Source: Bacteroidia bacterium
Lineage (GTDB): Bacteria; Bacteroidota; Bacteroidia; NS11-12g; UBA9320
Direction: 5' to 3'
Length of the DNA: 35,426 nucleotides
NCBI GenBank assembly: GCA_016779945.1
Contig: JADHMR010000010.1
Coordinates: 1-35,426, forward strand
Program-made: the position numbers and the translations under genes
In this document: piece after piece, positions 18,688 to 35,426 of the stretch
How positions within the stretch are numbered: position 1 is the first letter of the stretch
Layout of the letters: every line of letters starts with the position of its first letter
The notes under the pieces: model-generated
Database searches by the model: none
What the model saw: the letters and a program-made list of their open reading frames with translations, nothing else
What the model was told of the DNA's origin: nothing

Positions 18688-19542
18688 TCAGGAGTTGAAC
18701 TCCATTGTAAAGCTTTTTGTAACCTCGTCATTACGTTCCAATGTAAGTATTCCTTTTTTCTGAAGAATATCCTTATTGTGGGATACATAGTCAGCCATAC
18801 CTTGCCATGGCTCTATACACACAAAAGGTGCTCCTGGTTTTGACCAGATTCCCAAATGGGGAAAATCAGTGATAGTTAACTTGACTTCATGTGTTGATGA
18901 TTTATGAGCGAGCTTAACCCAATTTGATTTTAAATCTTGAAAAATCAAGGCATCCTGATTAAATATATTTTTGTCTAATGGAATTTTATTTCCTTGTATT
19001 ACATCAATTAAGGTTTCTTTGATATATGGGCCTTCTAATGTATTTGCTTTTATGTCCTCTTCACATTCAAATTGAATATCATAGTCATCAATTGAGTGAA
19101 TATTGAAAGCAGGATGACCACCAAAAGAAAATGGCATTACCTTAGTATCATTATTAATTACCCTAAATTTTTGCTCTAACGAATTTTTATTTAATGTGTA
19201 GGTAATTAAAAGTGTAAAATTAAAGGGAAAACTTAAAAGGGTGTCTTGATTTTGTTGAAGAACAAAGCAAATTGAATGCTCACTTTGGTGCAACACCTCA
19301 AAATCCAAATTGCGAGCAAAACCATGGTGACTTAAACCATATCTTTTACTTTGATAGGTATATTCATGATCCAATAAACTTCCTACAATTGGGAACAAAT
19401 TGGGAGCATGGCGTTCCCAAATAGGTCCTGCCTGCCAAATAAATTCAGTTTGTGACTTATTCTTTACAGAGCAAAGTTCGGCACCTTTCCGCTTGATATG
19501 AACATCAATAAAATCGTTGTGAATTGAATATATATCCAACAT
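18688..19542 (-). CDS. Aldose 1-epimerase family protein
   Basis: 284 aa, FGGHPAFNIH, GIWSKPGAPFVCIEPWQGMADYVSHNKDILQKKGILTL. Confidence 0.88.
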   Translation of the reverse strand: MLDIYSIHNDFIDVHIKRKGAELCSVKNKSQTEFIWQAGPIWERHAPNLFPIVGSLLDHEYTYQSKRYGLSHHGFARNLDFEVLHQSEHSICFVLQQNQDTLLSFPFNFTLLITYTLNKNSLEQKFRVINNDTKVMPFSFGGHPAFNIHSIDDYDIQFECEEDIKANTLEGPYIKETLIDVIQGNKIPLDKNIFNQDALIFQDLKSNWVKLAHKSSTHEVKLTITDFPHLGIWSKPGAPFVCIEPWQGMADYVSHNKDILQKKGILTLERNDEVTKSFTMEFNS

Positions 19543-19636
19543 GAGTAATGCAAATTAAAGTAAACTAAAGGGTTTTGTAATAGGTATTATTTATCTTTGC
19601 CCGAAGAAATTAACTTGTATCTAACGAAAATTATAT

Positions 19637-19710
19637 GGGGGATTAGCTCAGTTGGCTAGAGCGTTTGACTGGCAGTCAAAAGGCCACCGGTTCGAATCCG
19701 GTATTCTCCA
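19637..19710 (+). tRNA. tRNA-Ala (GGC)
   Basis: GGGGGATTAGCTCAGTTGGCTAGAGCGTTTGACTGGCAGTCAAAAGGCCACCGGTTCGAATCCGGTATTCTCCA; anticodon loop CTGGCAG gives GGC. Acceptor GGGGGAT pairs with ATTCTCC. Confidence 0.96.
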
Positions 19711-19857
19711 CTAATTTTCTTTCTTAGTGACTCAACTTTCAAAGCCTTTCATTGTCAATAAGTTACATCTTTTGAACTTGCAATAACTTTTATTTTGTTC
19801 CTAATCTCATTATAAAATGTTTCAATTATGTTTCTTTGTAGCCTATTCTTCTAACCC

Positions 19858-20697
19858 GTGTATGAATTAAATTCTAAAATTGAGATATACATTCCACAGT
19901 CTTTGAAAGGTTTGGTTGACGTTATTGGTCAGCACATATCTCATTATCCCTCTCACATGCTGGCTTTACCAAATTCCAAAGTAGAAATCATGTTTATTCT
20001 TGAAGGCAGCCAATTTGAACAATTTCATATAGATAAAAATAAAAGTAAATTTCTACCTAATGATACCAATAAGTCAGTAATGGTGTTTTCCAGCCAAACA
20101 AGACCAGTTGAAGCAGAATTTAAAAATCTGAATGTCATGACAGTAGTAATGAATCCGATAGCTGCTATAGCCATTTTAGGTATTCCAGCATGGGAAATCA
20201 AAGACTTGCATTTTGAACCCAATACTTTGCCCCATCTTAATGGCATACAAGATGCATTGAATACTCTTCCTACCTTTCAACAACGAGCAAAATATCTTGA
20301 AAAATATTTATTTCAGCAGCTTATAAAATCAAGGTATTTAAATCAGACGCAACAAAAAATTCGTGGTATGCAAATGCTACTTGGGGAAAAAAACTCCATC
20401 TTAAATGAAACTGAATTAAATTTTGATCACCTCTACTATTCCAAATCCCACTTTAATAGAGTTTGCAGAGACTGGCTTGGTGTAACATATAGAGAATACC
20501 AGCTACATAAAAAGTTTCGCAAGGCCATGTATGCCATTAATAACAAAAATCAATCCTTGACTCAAATTGCATATGACCTTAAATATTATGATCAAGCTCA
20601 TTTCACACGAACATTTAAAAAATTTGCCGGGGTAAGCCCTAGTGAATATAGGAGTTCTAATAAAGGACAAATCCCAGAATTTATTATATTAAAATGA
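19858..20697 (+). CDS. AraC family transcriptional regulator
   Basis: C-terminal HTH with FRKAMYAINNKNQSLTQIAYDLKYYDQAHFTRTFKKFAGVSPSEYR. GTG start in the ORF track. Confidence 0.92.
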   Translation: MYELNSKIEIYIPQSLKGLVDVIGQHISHYPSHMLALPNSKVEIMFILEGSQFEQFHIDKNKSKFLPNDTNKSVMVFSSQTRPVEAEFKNLNVMTVVMNPIAAIAILGIPAWEIKDLHFEPNTLPHLNGIQDALNTLPTFQQRAKYLEKYLFQQLIKSRYLNQTQQKIRGMQMLLGEKNSILNETELNFDHLYYSKSHFNRVCRDWLGVTYREYQLHKKFRKAMYAINNKNQSLTQIAYDLKYYDQAHFTRTFKKFAGVSPSEYRSSNKGQIPEFIILK

Positions 20698-20762
20698 GAG
20701 ATTGATACAATTATTAGAATCAAATAGATTTTAAGTTTGTTAAAAATTTATAAATAATAAAC

Positions 20763-21179
20763 ATGAAATCATCATTGATCTACCTCATCTGTATCTTAAT
20801 ACAATTTATCTCCGGATTCGGACTTTTAATCGGTATTTTTTTAGACCCCATAGGCCTTATGCAACCTCAATTTGAAATTGACTTGAATAGCGAACCAGTA
20901 GCTGACCTATTGATTTTTTGGACGCAAGGAATTATTGATGTCACTGCCATGCATATGATTGGAATTGGACTATTACTCCTAGTTTTACGTTCATTTCGAC
21001 TTGAAAACCATGTAAATAAGAAGGTGTTCGCTGCCTTCGCTGCCTTCCAAGGCTCTGTTTTACTAGTAGCCCTATACAATCACTTTTTCCAAGGAGGTGG
21101 GCCGCCGCCGTTCATTGGTGTTCTTTTAATGGCTCAGGCAGTTTTAACTATATATGGTTGGAAAAAGGCAATAAATTAA
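20763..21179 (+). CDS. Small integral membrane protein
   Basis: 138 aa with about four hydrophobic helices. Family not recognised. Confidence 0.7.
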   Translation: MKSSLIYLICILIQFISGFGLLIGIFLDPIGLMQPQFEIDLNSEPVADLLIFWTQGIIDVTAMHMIGIGLLLLVLRSFRLENHVNKKVFAAFAAFQGSVLLVALYNHFFQGGGPPPFIGVLLMAQAVLTIYGWKKAIN

Positions 21180-21212
21180 ATTTCATTAACTACAACTAAA
21201 GTAATCTCTTTT

Positions 21213-21348
21213 AGCAGCCAAACTTTTCAACACAAGCGACCAGCCCAGAGTCCATCAAAAAATGTTTCACCTGTGTTTTTAAAGAGTTAATAAACGACTG
21301 AAAATTAGGTAGTTGTAAAAGAATGAAGGCGACCGGTATTCTCCACTA
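21213..21348 (+). repeat. Array repeat R1
   Basis: AGCAGCCAAACTTTTCAACAC...AAAAAATGTTTCACCTGTGTTTTT...AATTAGGTAGTTGTAAAAGAATGAAGGCGACCGGTATTCTCCACTA. Confidence 0.93.
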
Positions 21349-21625
21349 AAACAGTGATCTATACAATTCAAATCTATGCATTTTGCATAAATTTTTTGCA
21401 TAATTGACAGTTTTTTGACAGTAAAAAGCTAAAATTTTTGAACCAATTTTTTTGAAAATTCTACATCCATGTTTTTAATAATTAAAAATAAGCTAATAAC
21501 TTTTATTGGTGGGACAATTTTCATTTGATTTATTGAAAATAATGTAAGTTTGTTAATCTCTATTAACAAATGCCATAGGGTAAATCACATTTCAAACGGT
21601 ATAATAGTATAAATTTAATAAAATA

Positions 21626-21982
21626 ATGAAAAATACAATTAAGTTAATTTTAGCAATGTTTGTCTTTAGTTCTGTATTTATCACCTCATGTCAAAAGGTT
21701 GATTTTAAGGAAATTATCGAAAAAGTAAGAGACGATAAAGGAGACAGAGATCGTGACGATGACAGAGATCGTGATGATGACAGAGATCGTGACGATGACA
21801 GAGATCGTGATGATGACAGAGATCGTGATGATGACAGAGATCGTGATGATGATGACAGAGATCGTGACGATGACAGAGATCGTGATGATGATGACAGAGA
21901 TCGTGACGATGACAGAGATCGTGATGATGATGACAGAGATCGTGATGATGATGAGGAAGAAGACATAGAAGGACGAAGATAA
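21626..21982 (+). CDS. Lipoprotein with Asp/Arg (DRDRDD) low-complexity tandem repeats
   Basis: Signal peptide with lipobox (SSVFITSCQK), then 11 DRDRDD(D) units. Confidence 0.75.
   Translation: MKNTIKLILAMFVFSSVFITSCQKVDFKEIIEKVRDDKGDRDRDDDRDRDDDRDRDDDRDRDDDRDRDDDRDRDDDDRDRDDDRDRDDDDRDRDDDRDRDDDDRDRDDDEEEDIEGRR
21743..21953 (+). repeat. In-frame 18/21-nt tandem repeat (GACAGAGATCGTGAYGAT, some units with an extra GAT)
   Basis: 11 units visible. The distal half alternates 18- and 21-nt units. Confidence 0.97.
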
Positions 21983-24174: not shown

Positions 24175-24310
24175 AGCAGTCGAACTTTTCAACACTCGCG
24201 AGTAGCTTGGAGTCCATCAAAAAATGTTTCACCCGTAAATTTAATTAATCAGTAAATAACTGATAATTAGATTATTACAAAGCAATGAAGGCGACCGGTA
24301 TTCTCCACTA
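24175..24310 (+). repeat. Array repeat R2
   Basis: AGCAGTCGAACTTTTCAACACTCGCGAGTAGCTTGGAGTCCATCAAAAAATGTTTCACCC...AATGAAGGCGACCGGTATTCTCCACTA. Confidence 0.94.
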
Positions 24311-24318
24311 AAACATTG

Positions 24319-24339
24319 ATCTATGCAAAATGCATAGAT
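24319..24339. promoter_or_regulatory. Perfect inverted repeat in the leader after R2, related hairpin after R1
   Basis: ATCTATGCA-AAA-TGCATAGAT followed by TTTTTTGCATAATTGAC. After R1, TATGCA-TTT-TGCATA (21375-21389) is followed by AATTTTTTGCATAATTGAC. Confidence 0.5.
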
Positions 24340-24389
24340 TTTTTGCATAATTGACTTTTGTATCCAAATTATAAATACTAAAATTGAAA

Positions 24390-24806: not shown

Positions 24807-24843
24807 AGCAGTCAAACTTTTCCAAACCAGAGACTAGCTTGGA
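24807..24843 (+). repeat. Array repeat R3 (truncated, only the first ~37 bp)
   Basis: AGCAGTCAAACTTTTCCAAACCAGAGACTAGCTTGGA, then an abrupt junction to sequence identical to 28967-29013. Confidence 0.88.
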
Positions 24844-24890
24844 ATTCAAAATCATTGACAGTTAATATATATTTTCCCGATGGATTATTT
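24844..24890. repeat. 47-bp copy of the 3' end of a T9SS-protein gene (other copy 28967-29013)
   Basis: ATTCAAAATCATTGACAGTTAATATATATTTTCCCGATGGATTATTT is identical at both sites. Confidence 0.95.
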
Positions 24891-25805
24891 ACAATTGTAA
24901 ATTAACGTTTTGACTCCTAAAGTTATGTCTTCTGAAGTAAACCCAGGAATAGTTAAGCTAGAACTTGTGTAGTATTGTTTATCATTGTACTCGTATGAGT
25001 AGACAAAAGGAAAAGGAAAAAGATCATCTTTACCAAAGTCTACTGATATTGTACCACTTACAATGTTCTGATTACCAACTAAAAGAGGAACTAAATAAAT
25101 ATAACCAACGTTTTGACTCCTAAAGTTATGTCTTCTTTGATACATTATAAAGAATACAAAATTAGAATTGTTAGGATTTTTTCTATAGTCATATGTTGAA
25201 ATATCAAATTTTAGAAACTCTTCAAGTTCATTTGTTACTTCACCGTTAGTAGGGTCCAAGATAGGCCTTAACTCATTGAAAACACATTGAGTAAGGTTAC
25301 CACTATTATTGTAACTAAAAGTTGATATTGAATTAATGATGTCATCACCTGTAGAAAGGTCATGATCCTCAAATTCTGTGATATTTTGTCCTGATGATTG
25401 AATGACATAATAGCCAGTTATTTCTGTTCCTGACTTGACATCTACTCTTGAAGGAATTGAATTATTTCCACTGTATTTAAATTCATAAAGAATCACATCG
25501 TCAATATCGTTGTTTTGAATTTCAGTAGCTGTAACAATTCGGTTCCCGTCATATTCAAATGATATAGCACTAGTAGTACCTGTATTTTCAACTGAGCTAG
25601 CTATAATTATATTGTTGGTATCGTTGTATTCATAGGTAATGCTCTCTGTCTCTTCACCATAATCTATTACCTCTTGGATAATATAACATCTATTTGTACT
25701 TGGTGTGTTTTCCTCTTCGTCAGAACATGATTGTAAAAAGTTGCCTCCTAATAGAAGAGCTGCGAATAGAATAGTAGTTTTTTTGATTATTACCTTATAA
25801 TTCAT
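24885..25805 (-). CDS. Putative lipoprotein, unknown function
   Basis: MNYKVIIKKTTILFAALLLGGNFLQSCSDEEENTPS (lipobox). ORF-track start at 25856 is probably too long. End coordinate approximate. Confidence 0.75.
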   Translation of the reverse strand: MNYKVIIKKTTILFAALLLGGNFLQSCSDEEENTPSTNRCYIIQEVIDYGEETESITYEYNDTNNIIIASSVENTGTTSAISFEYDGNRIVTATEIQNNDIDDVILYEFKYSGNNSIPSRVDVKSGTEITGYYVIQSSGQNITEFEDHDLSTGDDIINSISTFSYNNSGNLTQCVFNELRPILDPTNGEVTNELEEFLKFDISTYDYRKNPNNSNFVFFIMYQRRHNFRSQNVGYIYLVPLLVGNQNIVSGTISVDFGKDDLFPFPFVYSYEYNDKQYYTSSSLTIPGFTSEDITLGVKTLIYNCK

Positions 25806-25858: not shown

Positions 25859-25993
25859 TGCGTCAAACTTTTCAACACCAGAGACTAGCTTGGATTCGAT
25901 CAAAAAATGTTTCACCTGTATTTTTAAAAAGTCAATAATTAATTGAAAATTAGATAGTTACAAAGAAATGAAGGCGACCGGTATTCTCCACCA
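25859..25993 (+). repeat. Array repeat R4
   Basis: TGCGTCAAACTTTTCAACACCAGAGACTAGCTTGGATTCGATCAAAAAATGTTTCACCTG...AATGAAGGCGACCGGTATTCTCCACCA. Confidence 0.94.
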
Positions 25994-26047
25994 TTTTTCT
26001 TTTTGGGTTTCTAACTTGAGGAAAGAACCCTTATATCTTTTGTCTAT

Positions 26048-26335
26048 CTATGATGACACTTTATTTATCTCAAAAATCTCATAACTTTCCAAAACCTCAT
26101 CCCAAATAGGTTTTGAGACAGGATTTGATCCATCTAAGAAAGAGTTTAGTGCATTTTCATCGTGAACAGAAATCTTAAACATTACTGCACTCTTGTCAGG
26201 AGATACTGTACCTAGGGTTTTTGTTAAATCTGCAACTTTTCTTCTTTCATTCATCCCCTCTTCAGACTTCATAAAACCCATGAATTTCTCATAGCTTCCT
26301 TCGTTTAGTTTTGCAACTACAAGTATATTTTTCAT
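26048..26335 (-). CDS. Small conserved hypothetical protein
   Basis: 95 aa (MKNILVVAKLNEGSYEKFMGFMKSEEGMNERRKVADLTKTLGTVSPDKSAVMFKISVHDENAL). Preceded by TATATTTG-N4-ATG. Confidence 0.7.
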   Translation of the reverse strand: MKNILVVAKLNEGSYEKFMGFMKSEEGMNERRKVADLTKTLGTVSPDKSAVMFKISVHDENALNSFLDGSNPVSKPIWDEVLESYEIFEINKVSS

Positions 26336-26395: not shown

Positions 26396-26532
26396 AGCAG
26401 TCAAACTTTTCCACACCGGAGACTAGCTTGGAGTCCATTAAAAAATGTTTCACCTGTATTTTCGATTAGTCAATAATCATCTGATAATTAGATAGTTACA
26501 AATGAATGAAGGCGACCGGTATTCTTCTCTAA
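26396..26532 (+). repeat. Array repeat R5
   Basis: AGCAGTCAAACTTTTCCACACCGGAGACTAGCTTGGAGTCCATTAAAAAATGTTTCACCTG...AATGAAGGCGACCGGTATTCTTCTCTAA (3' end diverged). Confidence 0.93.
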
Positions 26533-26605
26533 AAAATTGATCTATTCATTTTACATATATTATTTTATATATATAACTTTTATTATCACATATTAATTAA
26601 ATTCG

Positions 26606-26825: not shown

Positions 26826-26961
26826 AGCAGTCAAATTTTTCCACACCGGCGTCCAGTTTAGATTCCCTCAAAAAATGTTTCACCTGTGTTTTTGGTTAAT
26901 CAATAATTAACTGACAATTAGATAGTTACAAAGAAATGAAGGCGACCGGTATTCTCCACCA
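26826..26961 (+). repeat. Array repeat R6
   Basis: AGCAGTCAAATTTTTCCACACCGGCGTCCAG...AAAAAATGTTTCACCTGTGTTTTT...AATGAAGGCGACCGGTATTCTCCACCA. Confidence 0.94.
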
Positions 26962-27941: not shown

Positions 27942-27964
27942 AATTCAAATATAACATACTTTAG

Positions 27965-28097
27965 ATCTAAACTTATTAACGCCCGCGAGTAGCTTGGAGT
28001 CCATCAAAAAATGTTTCACCTGTATTTTTAATAAGTCAATAATTAATTGAAAATTAGATAATTACAAAGAAATGAAGGCGACCGGTATTCTCCACTA
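27965..28097 (+). repeat. Array repeat R7 (5' end diverged)
   Basis: TCTAAACTTATTAACGCCCGCGAGTAGCTTGGAGTCCATCAAAAAATGTTTCACCTG...AATGAAGGCGACCGGTATTCTCCACTA. Confidence 0.93.
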
Positions 28098-28195
28098 TTT
28101 TCATCTATCTTTATTTTACCACCTACAAAGTCTATAGTTGAATATTAATTTTTTAATTTAAAAAGAAACTTGAGTTAAATCAATATATTTGGATT

Positions 28196-28780
28196 ATGAA
28201 TAATAAAACTATAGGCTTTATATCATTATTAATTTGTTTTATTTTAAATTCTTGTGATAAAAATGATGAATCAATAAATCCAATACAGTCACCTACAATC
28301 CAAAAATCAGTTGGAGATACTTTCCAGGGTGGTATCATATTTTACCTAGATGGAAATGGAGGAGGATTAATTGCTGCAACTTCAGATCAATCTACCGTTT
28401 CTGCCAATACCGATGGTTCAAATTGGGGATGTACAGGTAATAATATTAATGGAGCTGATTCTTCTGCTGTCGGATCAGGATATCAGAATACAATTGATAT
28501 CGAGCTAGGATGTATTTCAGCTGGAACAGCAGCAGATGTTTGTGCAAATCTTAATCTGGGCGGTTATAGCGATTGGTTTCTACCTTCAAAAGATGAATTA
28601 GATCTGATGTGGCAAAATTTAGCTGATTCAAATAACATTGGTGGTTTTGCTCCTTACACCTATTGGAGTTCGACTGAGGATAATAGCGAAAATGCATGGA
28701 TGCAAAATTTCTTTACTGGTATTCAACGTTCTAGAGCTAAATCTTCTGGTTACTGGGTAAGAGCTGTTCGTGCTTTTTAG
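28196..28780 (+). CDS. Lipoprotein with Lcl/DUF1566-like C-terminal domain
   Basis: Lipobox (FILNSCDKN), GDTFQGGIIFYLDGNGGGLIAA...GGYSDWFLPSKDELDLMW...YWSSTEDNSENAWMQNF...GYWVRAVRAF. Confidence 0.85.
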   Translation: MNNKTIGFISLLICFILNSCDKNDESINPIQSPTIQKSVGDTFQGGIIFYLDGNGGGLIAATSDQSTVSANTDGSNWGCTGNNINGADSSAVGSGYQNTIDIELGCISAGTAADVCANLNLGGYSDWFLPSKDELDLMWQNLADSNNIGGFAPYTYWSSTEDNSENAWMQNFFTGIQRSRAKSSGYWVRAVRAF

Positions 28781-28934
28781 CATAAAATGTCATTATAAAT
28801 TATAATTAATAAAAAAATATTTATAAACTACCATGATAGTAATTCCAATTCTATCTTAATCACAAAAGGTACATTCAGTTAATAAATAAACAAACCCCAA
28901 ATCATAGGGTTAAACTTCCATTCTGTACAAAGGC

Positions 28935-29894
28935 TTATTGCTTTATGAATATTTTACGTATTGTAGATTCAAAATCATTGACAGTTAATATATATTTTCC
29001 CGATGGATTATTTTCAATGTTCAATGTTTGATTTCCTGCTGAAAATAACTCTTGATAAACAACCTTACCTTGCAAATCGTAAATTGTAACTTCACTTTTC
29101 GATTGAAGATTTATGGTTAGATAGTCATTTACGGGATTAGGATAAAAATCAATAGTTTTTTGACTTAATGCATCAACAGACAAAAGCTTTTCTGCATTTA
29201 AGAAAGAAGATCGTTCATATTGAATGTCATCATCTAAATAAAATTTTTCTAAAGCTGCAACTGGTAAAGGAATTCCATCTACCCACCAATATTTTCCATA
29301 TTCAGTAATAGTTGCTTTTAGTACAAAAACAGAACCTTCCATAGCTTTTGTAGTTTCGACTAAAATTGCATTATCATACTTTTTACCATTTGGTAATATT
29401 AATGAAGAAACACCAAGAACTTTACTTGTACAATTATCTTTTACAGAACCTGATGCACCATTAAATTCGAAATCAGATTCAATTTCATCAGTAAATTGTG
29501 AGGTACTATTTAGAGGAAATTTCATCCATAGAACGGCATCTGAATAACTAGACTTAGTATTGTCAGTTATTCGACCATGATTATAAACTTCATTGCCTGA
29601 ATAAGAATAAAAGAATTCTCCATTTTGAGAGCTAATAAAATGGGTTGCTTTTGGATAGTCAGACTGAGATGAAGAATGACTAATAGGTAATAGTTTCATC
29701 TCGTAAATAGAAGTTGTTTTAACAGATGAAAAGTCCCATGGACCTTCATTACTGAATGAAGTGGGTTCAGAATTGTCTTCAAGTTGATCAAAATTGTAGC
29801 TTACTCCATATTCAGGAACGGTTGGCATATTGATGGTTTGACCAATAAGTGCAAAACTTATAATTTGGATTGAAATTAATATTGTGTAACGCAT
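28935..29894 (-). CDS. Secreted protein with C-terminal T9SS sorting domain, paralogous to 26964-27941
   Basis: IDFYPNPVNDYLTINLQSKSEVTIYDLQGKVVYQELFSAGNQTLNIENNPSGKYILTVNDFESTIRKIFIKQ. N-terminal halves of the two proteins align (PTVPEYGVSYN...FSNEGPWDFSSVKTTS vs PTIPEAGIYYE...FSNEGDWDFSTISTTS). Confidence 0.88.
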   Translation of the reverse strand: MRYTILISIQIISFALIGQTINMPTVPEYGVSYNFDQLEDNSEPTSFSNEGPWDFSSVKTTSIYEMKLLPISHSSSQSDYPKATHFISSQNGEFFYSYSGNEVYNHGRITDNTKSSYSDAVLWMKFPLNSTSQFTDEIESDFEFNGASGSVKDNCTSKVLGVSSLILPNGKKYDNAILVETTKAMEGSVFVLKATITEYGKYWWVDGIPLPVAALEKFYLDDDIQYERSSFLNAEKLLSVDALSQKTIDFYPNPVNDYLTINLQSKSEVTIYDLQGKVVYQELFSAGNQTLNIENNPSGKYILTVNDFESTIRKIFIKQ

Positions 29895-29922: not shown

Positions 29923-30055
29923 TATTCAAACTTTTCCACACAGGAGGCTAGCTTGTACTCTATTAAAAATGTTTCGCCTATATTTTTTGATAGTCGATAA
30001 TTAACTGATAATTAGATAGTTATAAAGTAATGAAGGCGACCGGTATTCTCCACTA
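29923..30055 (+). repeat. Array repeat R8 (terminal copy, putative attR-like end)
   Basis: ATATTCAAACTTTTCCACACAGGAGGCTAGCTTGTACTCTATTAAAAATGTTTCGCC...AATGAAGGCGACCGGTATTCTCCACTA, followed by ATTTTCTTT as after the tRNA. Confidence 0.93.
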
Positions 30056-30090
30056 ATTTTCTTTTTGAGTTTAAATAAAAAAAACTGTTT

Positions 30091-30579
30091 TCAATTAGCT
30101 ATATTATCTGCGGCATAAACGCCTGGAAGTAATTCTGGCTTATATCTCGCCTTAAATCCATAACCAATTACATATCCAACAGCTGCTTTTACAAGCTTGT
30201 TAGACTTCTTCGTGGGGTCGATGTTATAATCTAAATCAATAGTGTCTATTTCAATTCCATGTTCTTTTAGATAAAGTGCAACTTCAACTGCTTTTTCGCA
30301 CTCTTTCCATAGACGAGTCCAAATATCTTTGATTTCTGGAAGAACTTCTTTTTTATAAATGACGTGACAACCAGTTGAAGACACATGAAACACTAAAGTA
30401 GTTGCATATGTGGTAGATCCATTTTTAGTTTTACTATCACATCCCAAGTAAATTACAATATCACAGGATTCATGAGCAGTAATGAATTGTTTAACATATG
30501 GGGCCAATTCAAATTGGTTGCTATCCGTAAGCTTTTTAAATTTCATGTAATTTTTAATTAATGAATAATAGGTCATCAA
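30091..30579 (-). CDS. YkuK/DUF458-like RNase H-fold protein
   Basis: IVIYLGCDSKTKNGSTTYATTLVFH...DTIDLDYNIDPTKKSNKLVKAAVGYVIGYGFKARYKPELLPGVYAADNIAN. Likely start is the internal MKFKKL at about 30546. Confidence 0.75.
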   Translation of the reverse strand: MMTYYSLIKNYMKFKKLTDSNQFELAPYVKQFITAHESCDIVIYLGCDSKTKNGSTTYATTLVFHVSSTGCHVIYKKEVLPEIKDIWTRLWKECEKAVEVALYLKEHGIEIDTIDLDYNIDPTKKSNKLVKAAVGYVIGYGFKARYKPELLPGVYAADNIAN

Positions 30580-30669
30580 TATAGGGGTGTTGATTCACAT
30601 ATAAAAAAGTATTTAAAAATTTACTTTTTATTTAATCACTTGTGCATTCATCAGTTGACATTTTCATAT

Positions 30670-32010
30670 CTACAGTAGCTCATTAGCTAAATTTGCGAGT
30701 TCACTTCGCTCTCCTTTTTCCAAATTAACATGACAGAATAGAGGATGATTCTTCACTTTATCAATCAGATAAGAAAGACCATTACTTTCAGCGTCAAGAT
30801 AAGGTGTATCTATTTGATTAATATCTCCAGTAAAAACAATTTTAGTATTTTCACCTGCTCTTGTGATAATAGTTTTTATTTCATGAGGAGTAAGGTTTTG
30901 TGCTTCGTCTACAATAAAAAACACATTACTTAAAGTTCTTCCTCGAATAAATGCTAATGGTGCAATAGAAATCTTCTCTTGTTGGACCATTTCATTTATT
31001 CTTTTAAATTCTTTATCGGTCTCTTTGTATTGACTTTTTATAAACTTTAGGTTATCCCAAATGGGCTGAATATATGGGTCTATTTTAGCATTTGCATCAC
31101 CTGGTAAAAAACCAATATCTCTATTACTAAGAGGTACTATGGGTCGGGTAATATAAATTTGTTGAAACTTACTTCTTTGCTCAAGTGCTGCGGCCAAAGC
31201 CATCAATGTTTTACCTGTGCCAGCAACACCTCGTAGGGTTATTAGTTTGATATCGGGGTCCATTAAAGCATGTAAAGCGAACGCCTGCTCGGCATTTCTT
31301 GGAGTTATTTTATAAATGGTTCTCTTTTCAACACGCTCTATAATGCCCTCCAAAAAATTATAGTATCCCAGTGCCGATTTTTTCCCATTTTTCATGATTA
31401 AAAAATGGTTAAATGGAAACTTATTTTTACTTATACTGCTTGCCTGAACTTGTTCTGATTTAAATAGTTTGTCAATGATTGACGTATCAAGATCCTCTAA
31501 AATTGTTTTACCTGAGTAAAGTTTATCTACGTCTTTCACCTTACCAGTCAAGTAATCTTCTGCTTGTAGTGTAAATGCTTTAGCTTTTACACGCAAACAA
31601 ATGTCTTTTGAGACAAGCACTACTTTTCGTTTTGGATACTCTTGTTGCAGTGATAGTGCAGCATTTATTATTTTATTATCATTTTTATAATCATCAAAAG
31701 TATCTGCAGCATTGTTCTTAAGATTTAGTATTTCTTTTACTATTTTCAAACTCCCCTTACTTCCACCTCCTATTTCTACCCAGTTATTTAACATTGAATC
31801 ACTGGAAACACTATTGAGAAAACGTATAAAGCTTCTGGCCTCGTAATTTTTAGATTCTCCTCCTTTTTTGAAAGTATCTAACTCCTCCAATACCTGAATT
31901 GGAATTGCAACATCATTATCTTCAAAATTATTTACAGATTTGTGATCATACAATATGACCGAAGTATCCAATACAAAAATCTTTTTAGTTTTATTCATGA
32001 TTCCATTCAA
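30670..32010 (-). CDS. PhoH family ATPase with N-terminal PIN domain
   Basis: KIFVLDTSVILYDHKSVNNFE (PIN), LITLRGVAGTGKTLMALAAAL (Walker A), VFFIVDEAQNLTPHEIKTIITRAGENTKIVFTGDINQID. Confidence 0.95.
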   Translation of the reverse strand: MNGIMNKTKKIFVLDTSVILYDHKSVNNFEDNDVAIPIQVLEELDTFKKGGESKNYEARSFIRFLNSVSSDSMLNNWVEIGGGSKGSLKIVKEILNLKNNAADTFDDYKNDNKIINAALSLQQEYPKRKVVLVSKDICLRVKAKAFTLQAEDYLTGKVKDVDKLYSGKTILEDLDTSIIDKLFKSEQVQASSISKNKFPFNHFLIMKNGKKSALGYYNFLEGIIERVEKRTIYKITPRNAEQAFALHALMDPDIKLITLRGVAGTGKTLMALAAALEQRSKFQQIYITRPIVPLSNRDIGFLPGDANAKIDPYIQPIWDNLKFIKSQYKETDKEFKRINEMVQQEKISIAPLAFIRGRTLSNVFFIVDEAQNLTPHEIKTIITRAGENTKIVFTGDINQIDTPYLDAESNGLSYLIDKVKNHPLFCHVNLEKGERSELANLANELL

Positions 32011-32194
32011 AACTAAATTTTAAAATTGGTTTAGAAACATCAATTTAATACGTTTTTCCCCAACTTTTACATGATTTTTATTTCCTTTTATTAAGTGCAA
32101 TTATTTGACTCCAAGATTTAATATATTGCTATAATTAAACTAAAAAATTAGTTTTACACTAAAGTTTAATTTTAATAATTTCATACGCAAATTC

Positions 32195-33517
32195 ATGATT
32201 CTCAGCCTTAATAAAATTAAAAACAAATTAGGTATTGATCGTTGGATGATAATTCTCATTGGTGTTATTAGTATTTGGGTATCAAGTAACCTCAGCTGGG
32301 GAGATGATAGACCTCAAAGTATTATTGAAGCGGACGGCAAAGGTTACTATTCACATTTGCCCGCTCTTTTCATATTCAATGATCTCAATTTCGGTTTTTT
32401 TGAGGAGTATGAAGGGAAAAAGTACTACAATAAAAATCTTTACTATGATTTTCTTAAGGAGTTTGAGGGCAAGAGGTACAACAAATATTATGTTGGTACT
32501 GCTGTGCCAATGGCACCATTTTTTTTGATGGCACACGTCCTATCAAAAATATATGGTTTACCCGCAGACGGATATTCTAATCTTTACCATATTTTCATCA
32601 ATATAGCAGCTATTTTTTACCTGATAGTAGCACTTATTTTCTTTGGTAAACTGATGGATCGTTTTAATATTTCTGCTATCAACAAAAGCTTATCTTACCT
32701 CATTATTTATTTCGGTACAAATTGGTTTTATTATGTAAATCTTGAACCCGCAGTTTCTCATGTGTATACTGTTGCTTTCGTTCCTATGTTTTTATATTAC
32801 TTTTTACGATTCTCAGATACTTGGAAATATAAGCACTTAGCACTGGCTTCCTTTATTTTAGGACTTATCGTTCTAATTCGTCCAGTTAACATAATTACTG
32901 TTCTCGCGATTCCAATTTTCTATCATTCTTGGGTAGATTTTAAACGTGTTGCAGTTCGCATTATTATGACTCCAAAATATCTATTTACATCAGTTTTGTT
33001 GTCTTTTTCTGTAGTTTCAATTCAGTTGATTTTATACAAAGTACAAATAGGTCAGTTTTTCATTTATTCGTATGAAGATGAAGGCTTCAATTTTCTTAAC
33101 CCCGAATTTTTTAACTTCCTTTTTAGCTATAAAAAAGGATTGTATTTATACACGCCTGTTTTTGCAATAGCCACTCTTGGTTTTTGGTTTTGGTTCAAAA
33201 ATCGTCTTTGGTCCGCAATGACAGCGATTGCTTTTCTTCTAATTGCTATATATGTATTATGTAGTTGGCATGTGTGGTGGTATGGCGGTGGTTTTGGCAC
33301 ACGAGTCATGATTGATTTTTATGTCATCTGGATATTAGCCATCGCTATTTTACTGAATGCAATTAAAGGTAAATACAGAAAAGCAATCATAACTGGATTC
33401 ACTATTTTAGTTTTGTTTACTCAGTATCAGACCTGTCAATATCGACACAGTATTATACACTGGGATGGACTTACCTCAACGGAATATTGGGATGTGTTCC
33501 TAAAACCTTGGTTCTAG
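32195..33517 (+). CDS. Multi-pass membrane protein, glycosyltransferase-like (unassigned)
   Basis: 440 aa with many hydrophobic helices. Family not recognised with certainty. Confidence 0.65.
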   Translation: MILSLNKIKNKLGIDRWMIILIGVISIWVSSNLSWGDDRPQSIIEADGKGYYSHLPALFIFNDLNFGFFEEYEGKKYYNKNLYYDFLKEFEGKRYNKYYVGTAVPMAPFFLMAHVLSKIYGLPADGYSNLYHIFINIAAIFYLIVALIFFGKLMDRFNISAINKSLSYLIIYFGTNWFYYVNLEPAVSHVYTVAFVPMFLYYFLRFSDTWKYKHLALASFILGLIVLIRPVNIITVLAIPIFYHSWVDFKRVAVRIIMTPKYLFTSVLLSFSVVSIQLILYKVQIGQFFIYSYEDEGFNFLNPEFFNFLFSYKKGLYLYTPVFAIATLGFWFWFKNRLWSAMTAIAFLLIAIYVLCSWHVWWYGGGFGTRVMIDFYVIWILAIAILLNAIKGKYRKAIITGFTILVLFTQYQTCQYRHSIIHWDGLTSTEYWDVFLKPWF

Positions 33518-33558
33518 TTAAGAAATAATGGAATTATAAAATCAATAGAGATAAAAAA

Positions 33559-34398
33559 CTACAAATACTGTTTTAGTCGACTTAGCAGCTTGTATTGCTC
33601 CTCCGAAAGATTATCAAACTTAACATTAAGAAACATCATGCTTCTGTTTGTTTCATCTGCATCCCAAATTCTAGGTTCCAAATCTTTCTTGTCTGAGTAA
33701 TCAATTCTTTTGAGTATATATCGAAGACTATTTAGTTGTGCTACTAGCTTGTTGTCAGCATTGATCACTAGCCAAGGGGCTTTATCCCAACCTGTTTTTT
33801 CAAACATTTTTTCTTTGTATGTTGTATAGGATTCCCAATGGTCAACCGACTCAAGATCATTCTGGGATAATTTCCAATACTTTAGATCGTGATTTCTTCG
33901 AATATCGAATCGAGTAGCTTGTGTATCTATGCTTATGGATAAATAGAATTTAATTAAAATCGTGTCATTTTCAACCATTTTCTTCTCCCAATCAACTACA
34001 TTCCGCATGAAATACTCATATTGATTGTCGGTGCAATAACCCATCGAGGGTTGAATTACTGCACGAGAGTACCAAGATCTGTCAAAAAATACAATTTCTC
34101 CTTCTTGAGGCAACAACTTCTGATAGGTTCTTAACCAATTCCTATTTTGTTTTTCAGTAGGTGTTCCTAATTCAACCACACGATAATGTCTAGTCATTAG
34201 ATTTTCGGATATCCTATTAATGGCTGATCCCTTACCCGCAGCATCTCTTCCCTCAAAAACAACTGCTAACTTTTTCTTATTTTTTAGCAACCACTCTTGA
34301 AGCTTTAACAACTCTCGCTGAAGATGAAATTTTTCCTCATGAAACTGATTATTAGTCAGGAGTTTATACTCTGAGTTTATATAAACAACATCTTTCAT
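33559..34398 (-). CDS. Polyphosphate kinase 2 family protein
   Basis: VVFEGRDAAGKGSAINRISENL (Walker A), FFDRSWYSRAVIQPSMGYC, WLVINADNK. Confidence 0.93.
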   Translation of the reverse strand: MKDVVYINSEYKLLTNNQFHEEKFHLQRELLKLQEWLLKNKKKLAVVFEGRDAAGKGSAINRISENLMTRHYRVVELGTPTEKQNRNWLRTYQKLLPQEGEIVFFDRSWYSRAVIQPSMGYCTDNQYEYFMRNVVDWEKKMVENDTILIKFYLSISIDTQATRFDIRRNHDLKYWKLSQNDLESVDHWESYTTYKEKMFEKTGWDKAPWLVINADNKLVAQLNSLRYILKRIDYSDKKDLEPRIWDADETNRSMMFLNVKFDNLSEEQYKLLSRLKQYL

Positions 34399-34462
34399 TT
34401 TTCAAACTTAAGAAAGTTATTACAGTTTAAGCAAAAGTTATGTATTAAGAAATAATGAAATT

Positions 34463-35362
34463 TTATTTCTTGCTTTGTAAATGATTAAAATGCATATCAT
34501 AAATCATACCATCTGCCAATCCAATTTTAGGAACTATAACTTGTTTAGATTTCATTTGTTTCAATATAAATAAATAGATATCCAATGCTGGAACAATTAA
34601 ATCGGCACGGTCTGGTTTTAATTGGTAATCTACAATTCGCTCTTGAATAGTTGCCTTGTTCAGGTCGCTTCTCAGCTTTTTGATTTTAGATACCTTAATA
34701 GGTTCCATGTGTCTTGCTCCGAGTATTTTATGTGCTTTGTTAATATTACCACCCGTAGCAAAAACATCATGTTTGACGGTCGAATCTACCTTTTCCGCTA
34801 ACCAATCACTAATTTTTTTCCAAACCCTTTTTGAAGTTTTATCTTTTATCATCCGCAAGGTTCCAACCTCAAAGGATTTGGCAGCTATTCTCTCACCATT
34901 TTCAAAAACACTCACTTCTGTTGACCCGCCACCTACATCAATTACAATATAAGGACTCTGATTTTCAGACAGAAGTAATGGGAATGATAAAAAAATTAAT
35001 TGTGCCTCTTCTTTACCTGATATTATCTCTACTGAAAGTTCAGCATATTTTTCTATAGCAGCTCTCACTTTATCCGCATTTTTTGCCTCACGCATCGCTG
35101 AAGTGGCACACACTCGTGTCTGTCTGACCTTGAAAACATCTGATATAAGTTTAAACGACTGCATCACTTTTAAAAAGTCTTCCAGCTTTTGTTCTGAAAT
35201 CAATCCATTTTCAAAAACTTCCTCACCCAAACGCAATGGTATACGGGTATAACAATACTTTTGGATATAAACAGATGTGCGATTAGTAACGACTTCTCCG
35301 ACTAAGAGTCTTACTGCATTTGTTCCAATGTCTATGGCAGCCAATTTCATCAATTGATTCAA
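34463..35362 (-). CDS. Ppx/GppA family exopolyphosphatase
   Basis: MKLAAIDIGTNAVRLLVGEV, CATSAMREAKN, VIDVGGGSTEVSVFENGE. Confidence 0.93.
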   Translation of the reverse strand: MNQLMKLAAIDIGTNAVRLLVGEVVTNRTSVYIQKYCYTRIPLRLGEEVFENGLISEQKLEDFLKVMQSFKLISDVFKVRQTRVCATSAMREAKNADKVRAAIEKYAELSVEIISGKEEAQLIFLSFPLLLSENQSPYIVIDVGGGSTEVSVFENGERIAAKSFEVGTLRMIKDKTSKRVWKKISDWLAEKVDSTVKHDVFATGGNINKAHKILGARHMEPIKVSKIKKLRSDLNKATIQERIVDYQLKPDRADLIVPALDIYLFILKQMKSKQVIVPKIGLADGMIYDMHFNHLQSKK

Positions 35363-35426
35363 ATAAAATTACATATACAATGAATACAACATCTTGTTAA
35401 AAGGTTGTTTAAAAAGTATATAAATA

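Follow-up and report, generated by a model that had tools for sequence, protein, structure and literature searches.

A probable tRNA-Ala-anchored array of mostly single-gene cassettes in a Bacteroidia genome, with sites of the type used by one tyrosine recombinase family

The 25-bp identity at the tRNA-Ala gene

What does a sequence of 25 bp signify when it occurs both at the 3' end of a tRNA-Ala gene and at the end of a repeat far downstream of it? This question is raised by a stretch of 35,426 nucleotides (referred to as the window) which forms the whole of contig C21 in a Bacteroidia draft genome (2.24 Mb, 144 contigs, 91% complete). A preliminary description of this DNA had taken the two copies as an attL/attR-like pair, so that the empty site would be formed by tRNA-Ala followed directly by a DUF458 gene. 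The identity of the 25-mer CCGGTATTCTCCACTAATTTTCTTT between the tRNA-Ala 3' end and repeat R8 was confirmed to be exact (Table 1) and its chance expectation is 0 (0 matches in 100 shuffles). The pair is not unique, as the identical 25-mer also ends repeat 2 inside the array of a relative, G011, in front of its AraC cassette, and one array repeat of another relative, G009. Within the window, a single further copy was found when up to 3 mismatches were allowed, which is located at R4 (25978-26002, 2 mismatches). The other repeats had been described as diverging right after CCACTA/CCACCA. This holds for R1, R2, R5, R6 and R7 but not for R4, which continues with TTTTTCTTTTTGGGTTT and has most of the 11-bp extension in common with R8 and the tRNA flank.

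The 25-mer is made up of two parts, with the first 14 bp being the tRNA-Ala 3' end CCGGTATTCTCCAC and the next ~11 bp a left-end flank. Flanks of this second type were observed in the relatives between tRNA-Ala and a ~420-aa tyrosine recombinase, where they follow the pattern [CT]NATTTT[CT]CTTTCTGAGTTTTTCGACC (G003, G006, G007, G011 on contig C8, G013, G014 and G017). Of 20 positions counted by hand, the R8 flank shares 15-17 with these leader-type flanks and 11 with the flank of the array-free G008; it is unlike the native flanks of both G008 and G010. Judged by its sequence, the 25-bp identity is the tRNA core together with the putative left-end (P') flank of an integrase-type element family. 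Part of the 11-bp flank may be old chromosomal sequence because the array-free tRNA flank of G016 likewise begins with TAATTTTCTT.

Table 1. Coordinates of the features in the window
Feature	Position	Strand	Remarks
tRNA-Ala(GGC)	19637..19711	+	intact; 3' end = attachment core (attB); sole full copy found in genome
25-bp identity, copy 1	19698..19722	+	14-bp tRNA core CCGGTATTCTCCAC + 11 bp left-end (P') flank
Integrase-leader remnant	19712..19834	+	85-91% identical to the region between tRNA and integrase gene in close relatives; arm box at core +119, worn
AraC-type regulator, gene 1 of cassette 1	19858..20697	+	
138-aa membrane-like protein, gene 2 of cassette 1	20763..21179	+	
R1	21213..21346	+	arm box 2 at 21262, core at 21333
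R2	24175..24308	+	core at 24295; terminator-like hairpin 24318-24340 downstream
R3, truncated (left part alone)	24807..24847	+	fused to a fragment found again at 28967-29025
R4	25862..25991	+	core at 25978; P'-like flank, then 95-aa gene (26048-26335, -)
R5	26396..26529	+	core at 26516, mutated
R6	26826..26959	+	core at 26946
R7	27962..28095	+	core at 28082
Lcl_C-domain cassette body	28096..28883	+	97.4% to first cassette of G031, 94.5% to G011
R8 (repeat of the preliminary description)	29925..30053	+	arm box 2 at 29969, core at 30040
25-bp identity, copy 2	30040..30064	+	tRNA core + P'-like flank TAATTTTCTTT
RNaseH_like (DUF458/YkuK-type) gene	30091..30579	-	accessory; same-genus relatives without orthologue
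Further accessory genes	30670..35362		PIN-PhoH, 440-aa glycosyltransferase-like protein, PPK2, Ppx/GppA

Composite repeats and the integrase family

Seven complete repeats of ~130 bp and a truncated one were found in the window and none elsewhere in the source genome. Every complete repeat carries arm box 1, arm box 2 and the tRNA core in this order, with the first box ~117 nt and the second exactly 71 nt ahead of the core. The box at 71 nt, ATGTTTCAC, keeps its distance in all seven complete repeats while the 14-bp tRNA-Ala core is present in six of them, the core of R5 being mutated (CCGGTATTCTTCTCT). As in other elements at tRNA and tmRNA genes, the 3' end of the RNA gene is repeated at the far end of the insert and the tRNA-Ala gene itself is intact. 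The left edge of the repeat is an arm box common to the window and G016 repeats; a likeness of this edge to the tRNA anticodon arm (GCAGTCAAA) was rejected as not significant, since it was reached by 59/1000 and 70/300 shuffles. Concerted evolution of the repeats within the genome was not seen, with identities of 80.1% between window repeats and 80.6% between window and other repeats. A search with a 21-bp site found no match in viral contigs and only four records in genome contigs, all of them draft genomes already in the comparison set. In the R3 region (24807-24902), the fused 59-bp fragment is 93% identical to its counterpart in a Por_Secre_tail gene and this fusion is a scar of decay or recombination.

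The tyrosine recombinase of the relatives contains the domains PF00589 and PF13102 and lies directly behind the syntenic tRNA-Ala in G003, G006, G007, G011, G014 and G017, and also behind tRNA-Ala in G013. Its catalytic residues R277, K304, H365, R368, H388/H391 and Y401 (L060 numbering) are invariant in 9 integrase members. In the leaders of seven tRNA-Ala integrases, the same box as in the repeats was found at +122, +133 and +155 from the core and in inverted form at +164. Leaders of relatives at tmRNA (G016), tRNA-Lys (G002) and another tRNA (G013) retain the boxes at +122 and +133, and the tmRNA integrase leader of G033 has boxes at +133 and +144; the leader arm boxes were absent from the array-free tRNA-Ala loci examined. 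In the window, the integrase gene is missing at 19.7 kb with the AraC cassette in its place, and a search of the source assembly (91% complete) found no orthologue, the best match being 33%. A cognate integrase with arm sites is therefore a feature of the relatives, and the source genome keeps the leader remnant alone. A phage origin of the integrase was not supported, with phage relatives below 60% identity in every record and at most 33% among the ten listed.

Two further observations concern the same tRNA. In G011, the regions upstream of tRNA-Ala in L054 (C10, 17422-19300) and L065 (C8, 4123-6001) are 98.1% identical and split right after the tRNA core, one into a cassette array and the other into an integrase gene; these are possibly two strain versions of one locus. 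In genus g3 (L076 1709; L056 8160; L077 1360), other short repeats of the form ...GGATCGCRAAGCAAT plus the tRNA-Ala core lie behind this tRNA and apparently belong to a different element family.

Sister arrays were observed at the tmRNA-integrase loci of G016, with two repeats ~16-18 kb downstream, and of G033, a member of another genus, with four repeats ~10-13 kb downstream. The cores of these repeats are the tmRNA 3' end and match the target gene of the integrase to which they are linked. Both arm boxes of the tRNA-Ala repeats in the window recur in the G016 tmRNA repeats. An arm box is located 71 nt before the core in 2/2 G016 repeats and 70 nt before it in 4/4 G033 repeats, a one-base difference that depends on where counting of the core starts. 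The G033 array holds three cassettes with one main gene each. Its repeats 1-3 are followed by a leader-type flank whereas the last repeat continues with CCTTCGCCC..., a sequence that G061 and G024 have as their native tmRNA flank. Judging from these flanks, the last G033 repeat shows a true array end and R8 is unlike it. An empty site was found for the G033 tmRNA array, whereas the junction predicted for R8 and the DUF458 gene was not found in the relatives compared. The DNA behind the tmRNA-linked integrases (L172 10612-17221; L179 12026-15786) encodes McrBC components, a C5-cytosine methylase and a Toprim protein, and this cargo is of a defence type.

Cassettes and the right side of the window

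The array in the window consists of variable tandem segments with the seven complete repeats between them and no integrase inside. The AraC cassette (19698-21346) is 97.8% identical, core to core over 1653 bp, to the third cassette of G011 and its position differs, as it adjoins the tRNA in the window and is internal in G011. The Lcl cassette (from 28082) has its match in G031, another genus, as the first cassette behind tRNA-Ala. The 95-aa cassette is also present in G014 and its gene in G009, while the esterase cassette is common to G011 and G003. Cassettes 94-98% identical are thus found at other array positions, one even in another genus, and the identity with G011 and G031 begins exactly at the tRNA core. 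The repeats had been proposed to act as att sites; this exact start of the cassette identity and the expected flank logic of the tmRNA array both agree with the proposal.

A break in identity was observed at the left edge of the repeat. The bodies of three shared cassettes are 94-99% identical whereas their downstream repeats are only 82, 84 and 83% identical, which is no better than random repeat pairs (81% on average). As read from these values, cassette bodies and repeats have separate histories. Recombination at the core only is not predictive of this split because a body and its downstream repeat would stay together. Candidate explanations are that the repeats exchange with one another or that cassettes are assembled onto local repeats.

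Some cassettes start with a terminator-like inverted repeat and T runs (21347-21408, 24309-24355 and 26533-26576 in the window; 636-675 in the tmRNA array L212) and these starts perhaps replace the terminator of the RNA gene. Positions 21736-21969 contain tandem 18/21-nt repeats, which code for repeated Asp-Arg within a predicted lipoprotein of small size, and an ECF sigma factor gene adjoins.

The orthologous tRNA-Ala loci did not bear out the predicted empty site. G008 and G010, which have no array, carry aldose epimerase, tRNA-Ala and the b5317 block in this order, with the tRNA 3' end facing aldose epimerase. Same-genus relatives have no DUF458 orthologue (best 28-30%, at other loci) and, in a comparison with 59 relatives, the protein has homologues of 51-53% in another family and no close counterpart in the genus. 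When 30080-35426 was searched against the DNA of 19 relatives, nothing orthologous was found except the PIN-PhoH gene of G008; the DUF458, 440-aa, PPK2 and Ppx genes have no orthologous DNA there. G008 is the one same-genus relative among those searched that has the PIN-PhoH gene (85%), and it is unlinked to tRNA-Ala (1127 kb and 1474 kb, ~350 kb apart). Unlinked genes or a different junction had been named in advance as observations that would count against the prediction, and they are what the relatives examined show.

In the nearest relatives of the window, the region right of tRNA-Ala ends in a DUF2490 / NAD-epimerase / PLP-decarboxylase block. This block is found on contig C122 of the source genome, which ends 106 bp past DUF2490, and no overlap was found between the window end and C122. 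The DUF2490 block is the likely right boundary of the locus. Because the relatives have no orthologous DNA and the block is on C122, the region from R8 to the window end (30.08-35.4 kb) is best read as accessory DNA between the array and the DUF2490 block. The extra 11 bp of R8 resemble an integrase leader, which is the left end of an element, and therefore R8 probably precedes another, larger inserted segment (DUF458-PhoH-PPK2-Ppx) and not the original chromosome. R8 is probably not the last repeat, with the true array end lying outside the contig; the right end of the array was not seen within this assembly. In a weaker form of the prediction, the DUF458 segment may be an earlier acquisition that neighboured the tRNA just before the later cassettes came.

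The orientation of tRNA-Ala also varies. Compared with G008 and G010, its orientation with respect to aldose epimerase is reversed in the clade of the window (window 18688-19711; L169, L176, L184), as is its orientation to b5317 in G006. The tRNA and its island seem to have been inverted once.

Mechanism, competing explanations and known systems

We consider it quite probable that this locus is a tRNA-anchored array of mostly single-gene cassettes with sites used by one tyrosine recombinase family. The anatomy of the sites, their fixed geometry, the cassette boundaries, the shared cassettes and the accessory nature of the right side are all evident from the sequences that were compared. In the proposed mechanism, an integrase-family tyrosine recombinase, such as the one beside the same tRNA-Ala in relatives, would recombine the 14-bp tRNA core with a composite site on small elements or circles, the latter as presumed intermediates. 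The enzyme would be supplied in trans in the source genome, or may formerly have been encoded at 19.7 kb. Each insertion would leave the tRNA intact, place a new cassette behind it and leave a repeat at the right end of this cassette, and older cassettes would be pushed rightward. We infer excision, the interaction of enzyme and site, and the route of transfer alike. The absent integrase orthologue, the split histories of bodies and repeats, the G016 flank beginning with TAATTTTCTT and the unseen right end of the array count against the cassette-array reading.

These points have to be weighed together with other explanations. The exact 25-bp identity is what would be expected if R8 and the tRNA flank were attR and attL of the whole array, with the ancestral tRNA-Ala followed directly by TAATTTTCTTTTTGAGTTTAAATAAAA and the DUF458 gene, and this logic is sound in principle as the last repeat of the tmRNA array does have a native RNA-gene flank. 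However, the R8 flank is integrase-leader-like and unlike the native flanks of G008 and G010, the same 25-mer lies inside the G011 array, the block that forms the right backbone in close relatives (DUF2490 ... PLP decarboxylase) is located on C122, and orthologous DNA for the genes beyond R8 was absent from the 19 relatives searched except for the unlinked PIN-PhoH gene of G008; such a pair is unlikely. Growth of the array by duplication of tRNA-3'-end repeats and homologous recombination, with no site-specific integrase, is quite improbable. It would fit the different histories of repeats and bodies, the truncated R3 and a source genome without an integrase gene, but it is opposed by cassette identity that starts exactly at the core, by an arm-box geometry common to integrase leaders at several different RNA genes, and by cores in other arrays that match the target RNA gene of the integrase linked to them.

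A chimeric contig of this metagenome-assembled genome might be suspected as every relative with repeats is a draft assembly, several have contig breaks at the array, and relatives lack an equivalent of the right side of the window. Such an artefact is very unlikely since identical cassettes and repeats recur in independent genomes and the R8 sequence is continuous with both sides. We give almost no weight to a true integron (IntI with attC sites), even though tandem, mostly single-gene cassettes with ~130-nt sites between them are present and the array adjoins an integrase gene in relatives. The integrase scored 43 bits against the integron-integrase family TIGR02249, for which the cut-off is 265, and none of the 8 repeat strands folded as a single strand better than its shuffles (z 0.04 to 1.58, or about 0.0 to +1.6). 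Integron membership was rejected on this profile and folding; the receiving site, in addition, is a tRNA gene.

The cassette-array reading shares several properties with integrons, in which a platform with integrase and receiving site takes up mobile cassettes with one common recombination site and integrase-less arrays occur. Cassettes with a common site, mobile between arrays, were found here (AraC, Lcl, esterase, 95-aa), whereas the enzyme is not IntI, attC-type folding is absent and the receiving site is the 3' end of a tRNA or tmRNA. The locus is integron-like in its working, yet it is no integron. Known accretions of cis-mobilizable elements are usually few, with lengths of kilobases to tens of kilobases, whereas at least seven mostly gene-sized units are stacked here. 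Such elements, reviewed together with tandem accretion (PMC5704250), are alike in being att-flanked, integrase-less, accumulated at a single site and mobilized in trans.

The ssrA islands of Dehalococcoides are likewise arranged in tandem downstream of an RNA gene, and each terminates in a direct repeat of the 3' end of this gene as here; a short conserved motif is located upstream of the repeat, and many lack an integration module and were read as cis-mobilizable (PMC3146451). Those islands use a serine recombinase and 20-bp repeats and carry dehalogenase genes (PMC3146451), whereas the present locus involves a tyrosine recombinase family, ~130-bp sites in which the arm-box geometry is fixed, and cassettes roughly one gene in size. 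Additive flexible islands at tRNA-Lys in Methylophilaceae (PMC10872708) and fGI1 in Alteromonas (PMC4119200), in the portions of these reports available, are further cases of a conserved tRNA targeted by variable cassettes which repeat the last ~20 nt of the tRNA, with sizes down to 330 bp in Methylophilaceae. Variable tandem segments without their own integrase and with att repeats between them were likewise observed in the window. In contrast to the present locus, the same portions describe no composite site, arm boxes, assigned recombinase or transfer of the same cassette between array positions of different genera.

Tandem islands at RNA genes are known; as far as shown by the literature searched, the novelty here lies in units the size of a gene, in an arm geometry that is fixed and in the integrase family. 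We lean slightly towards the broader view that, in these Bacteroidia, integron-like cassette arrays arise behind RNA genes (tRNA-Ala, tmRNA and probably tRNA-Lys) through the action of a tyrosine recombinase family, with a fixed arm box and a core that follows the target. The site anatomy yields a simple search rule, an arm box 71 nt before the 3' end of an RNA gene. Furthermore, the type of flank tells the end of an array, with its native RNA-gene flank, from the left end of an element, with its leader-type flank; the attL/attR reading had mixed up the two. Integrons are usually regarded as the makers of single-gene cassette arrays. At the present loci, an integrase family that targets tRNA genes and has ordinary arm-and-core sites seems to do likewise and to move near-identical cassettes between genera; if this is true, it would be a second natural route for collecting single-gene cassettes, independent of IntI and attC.
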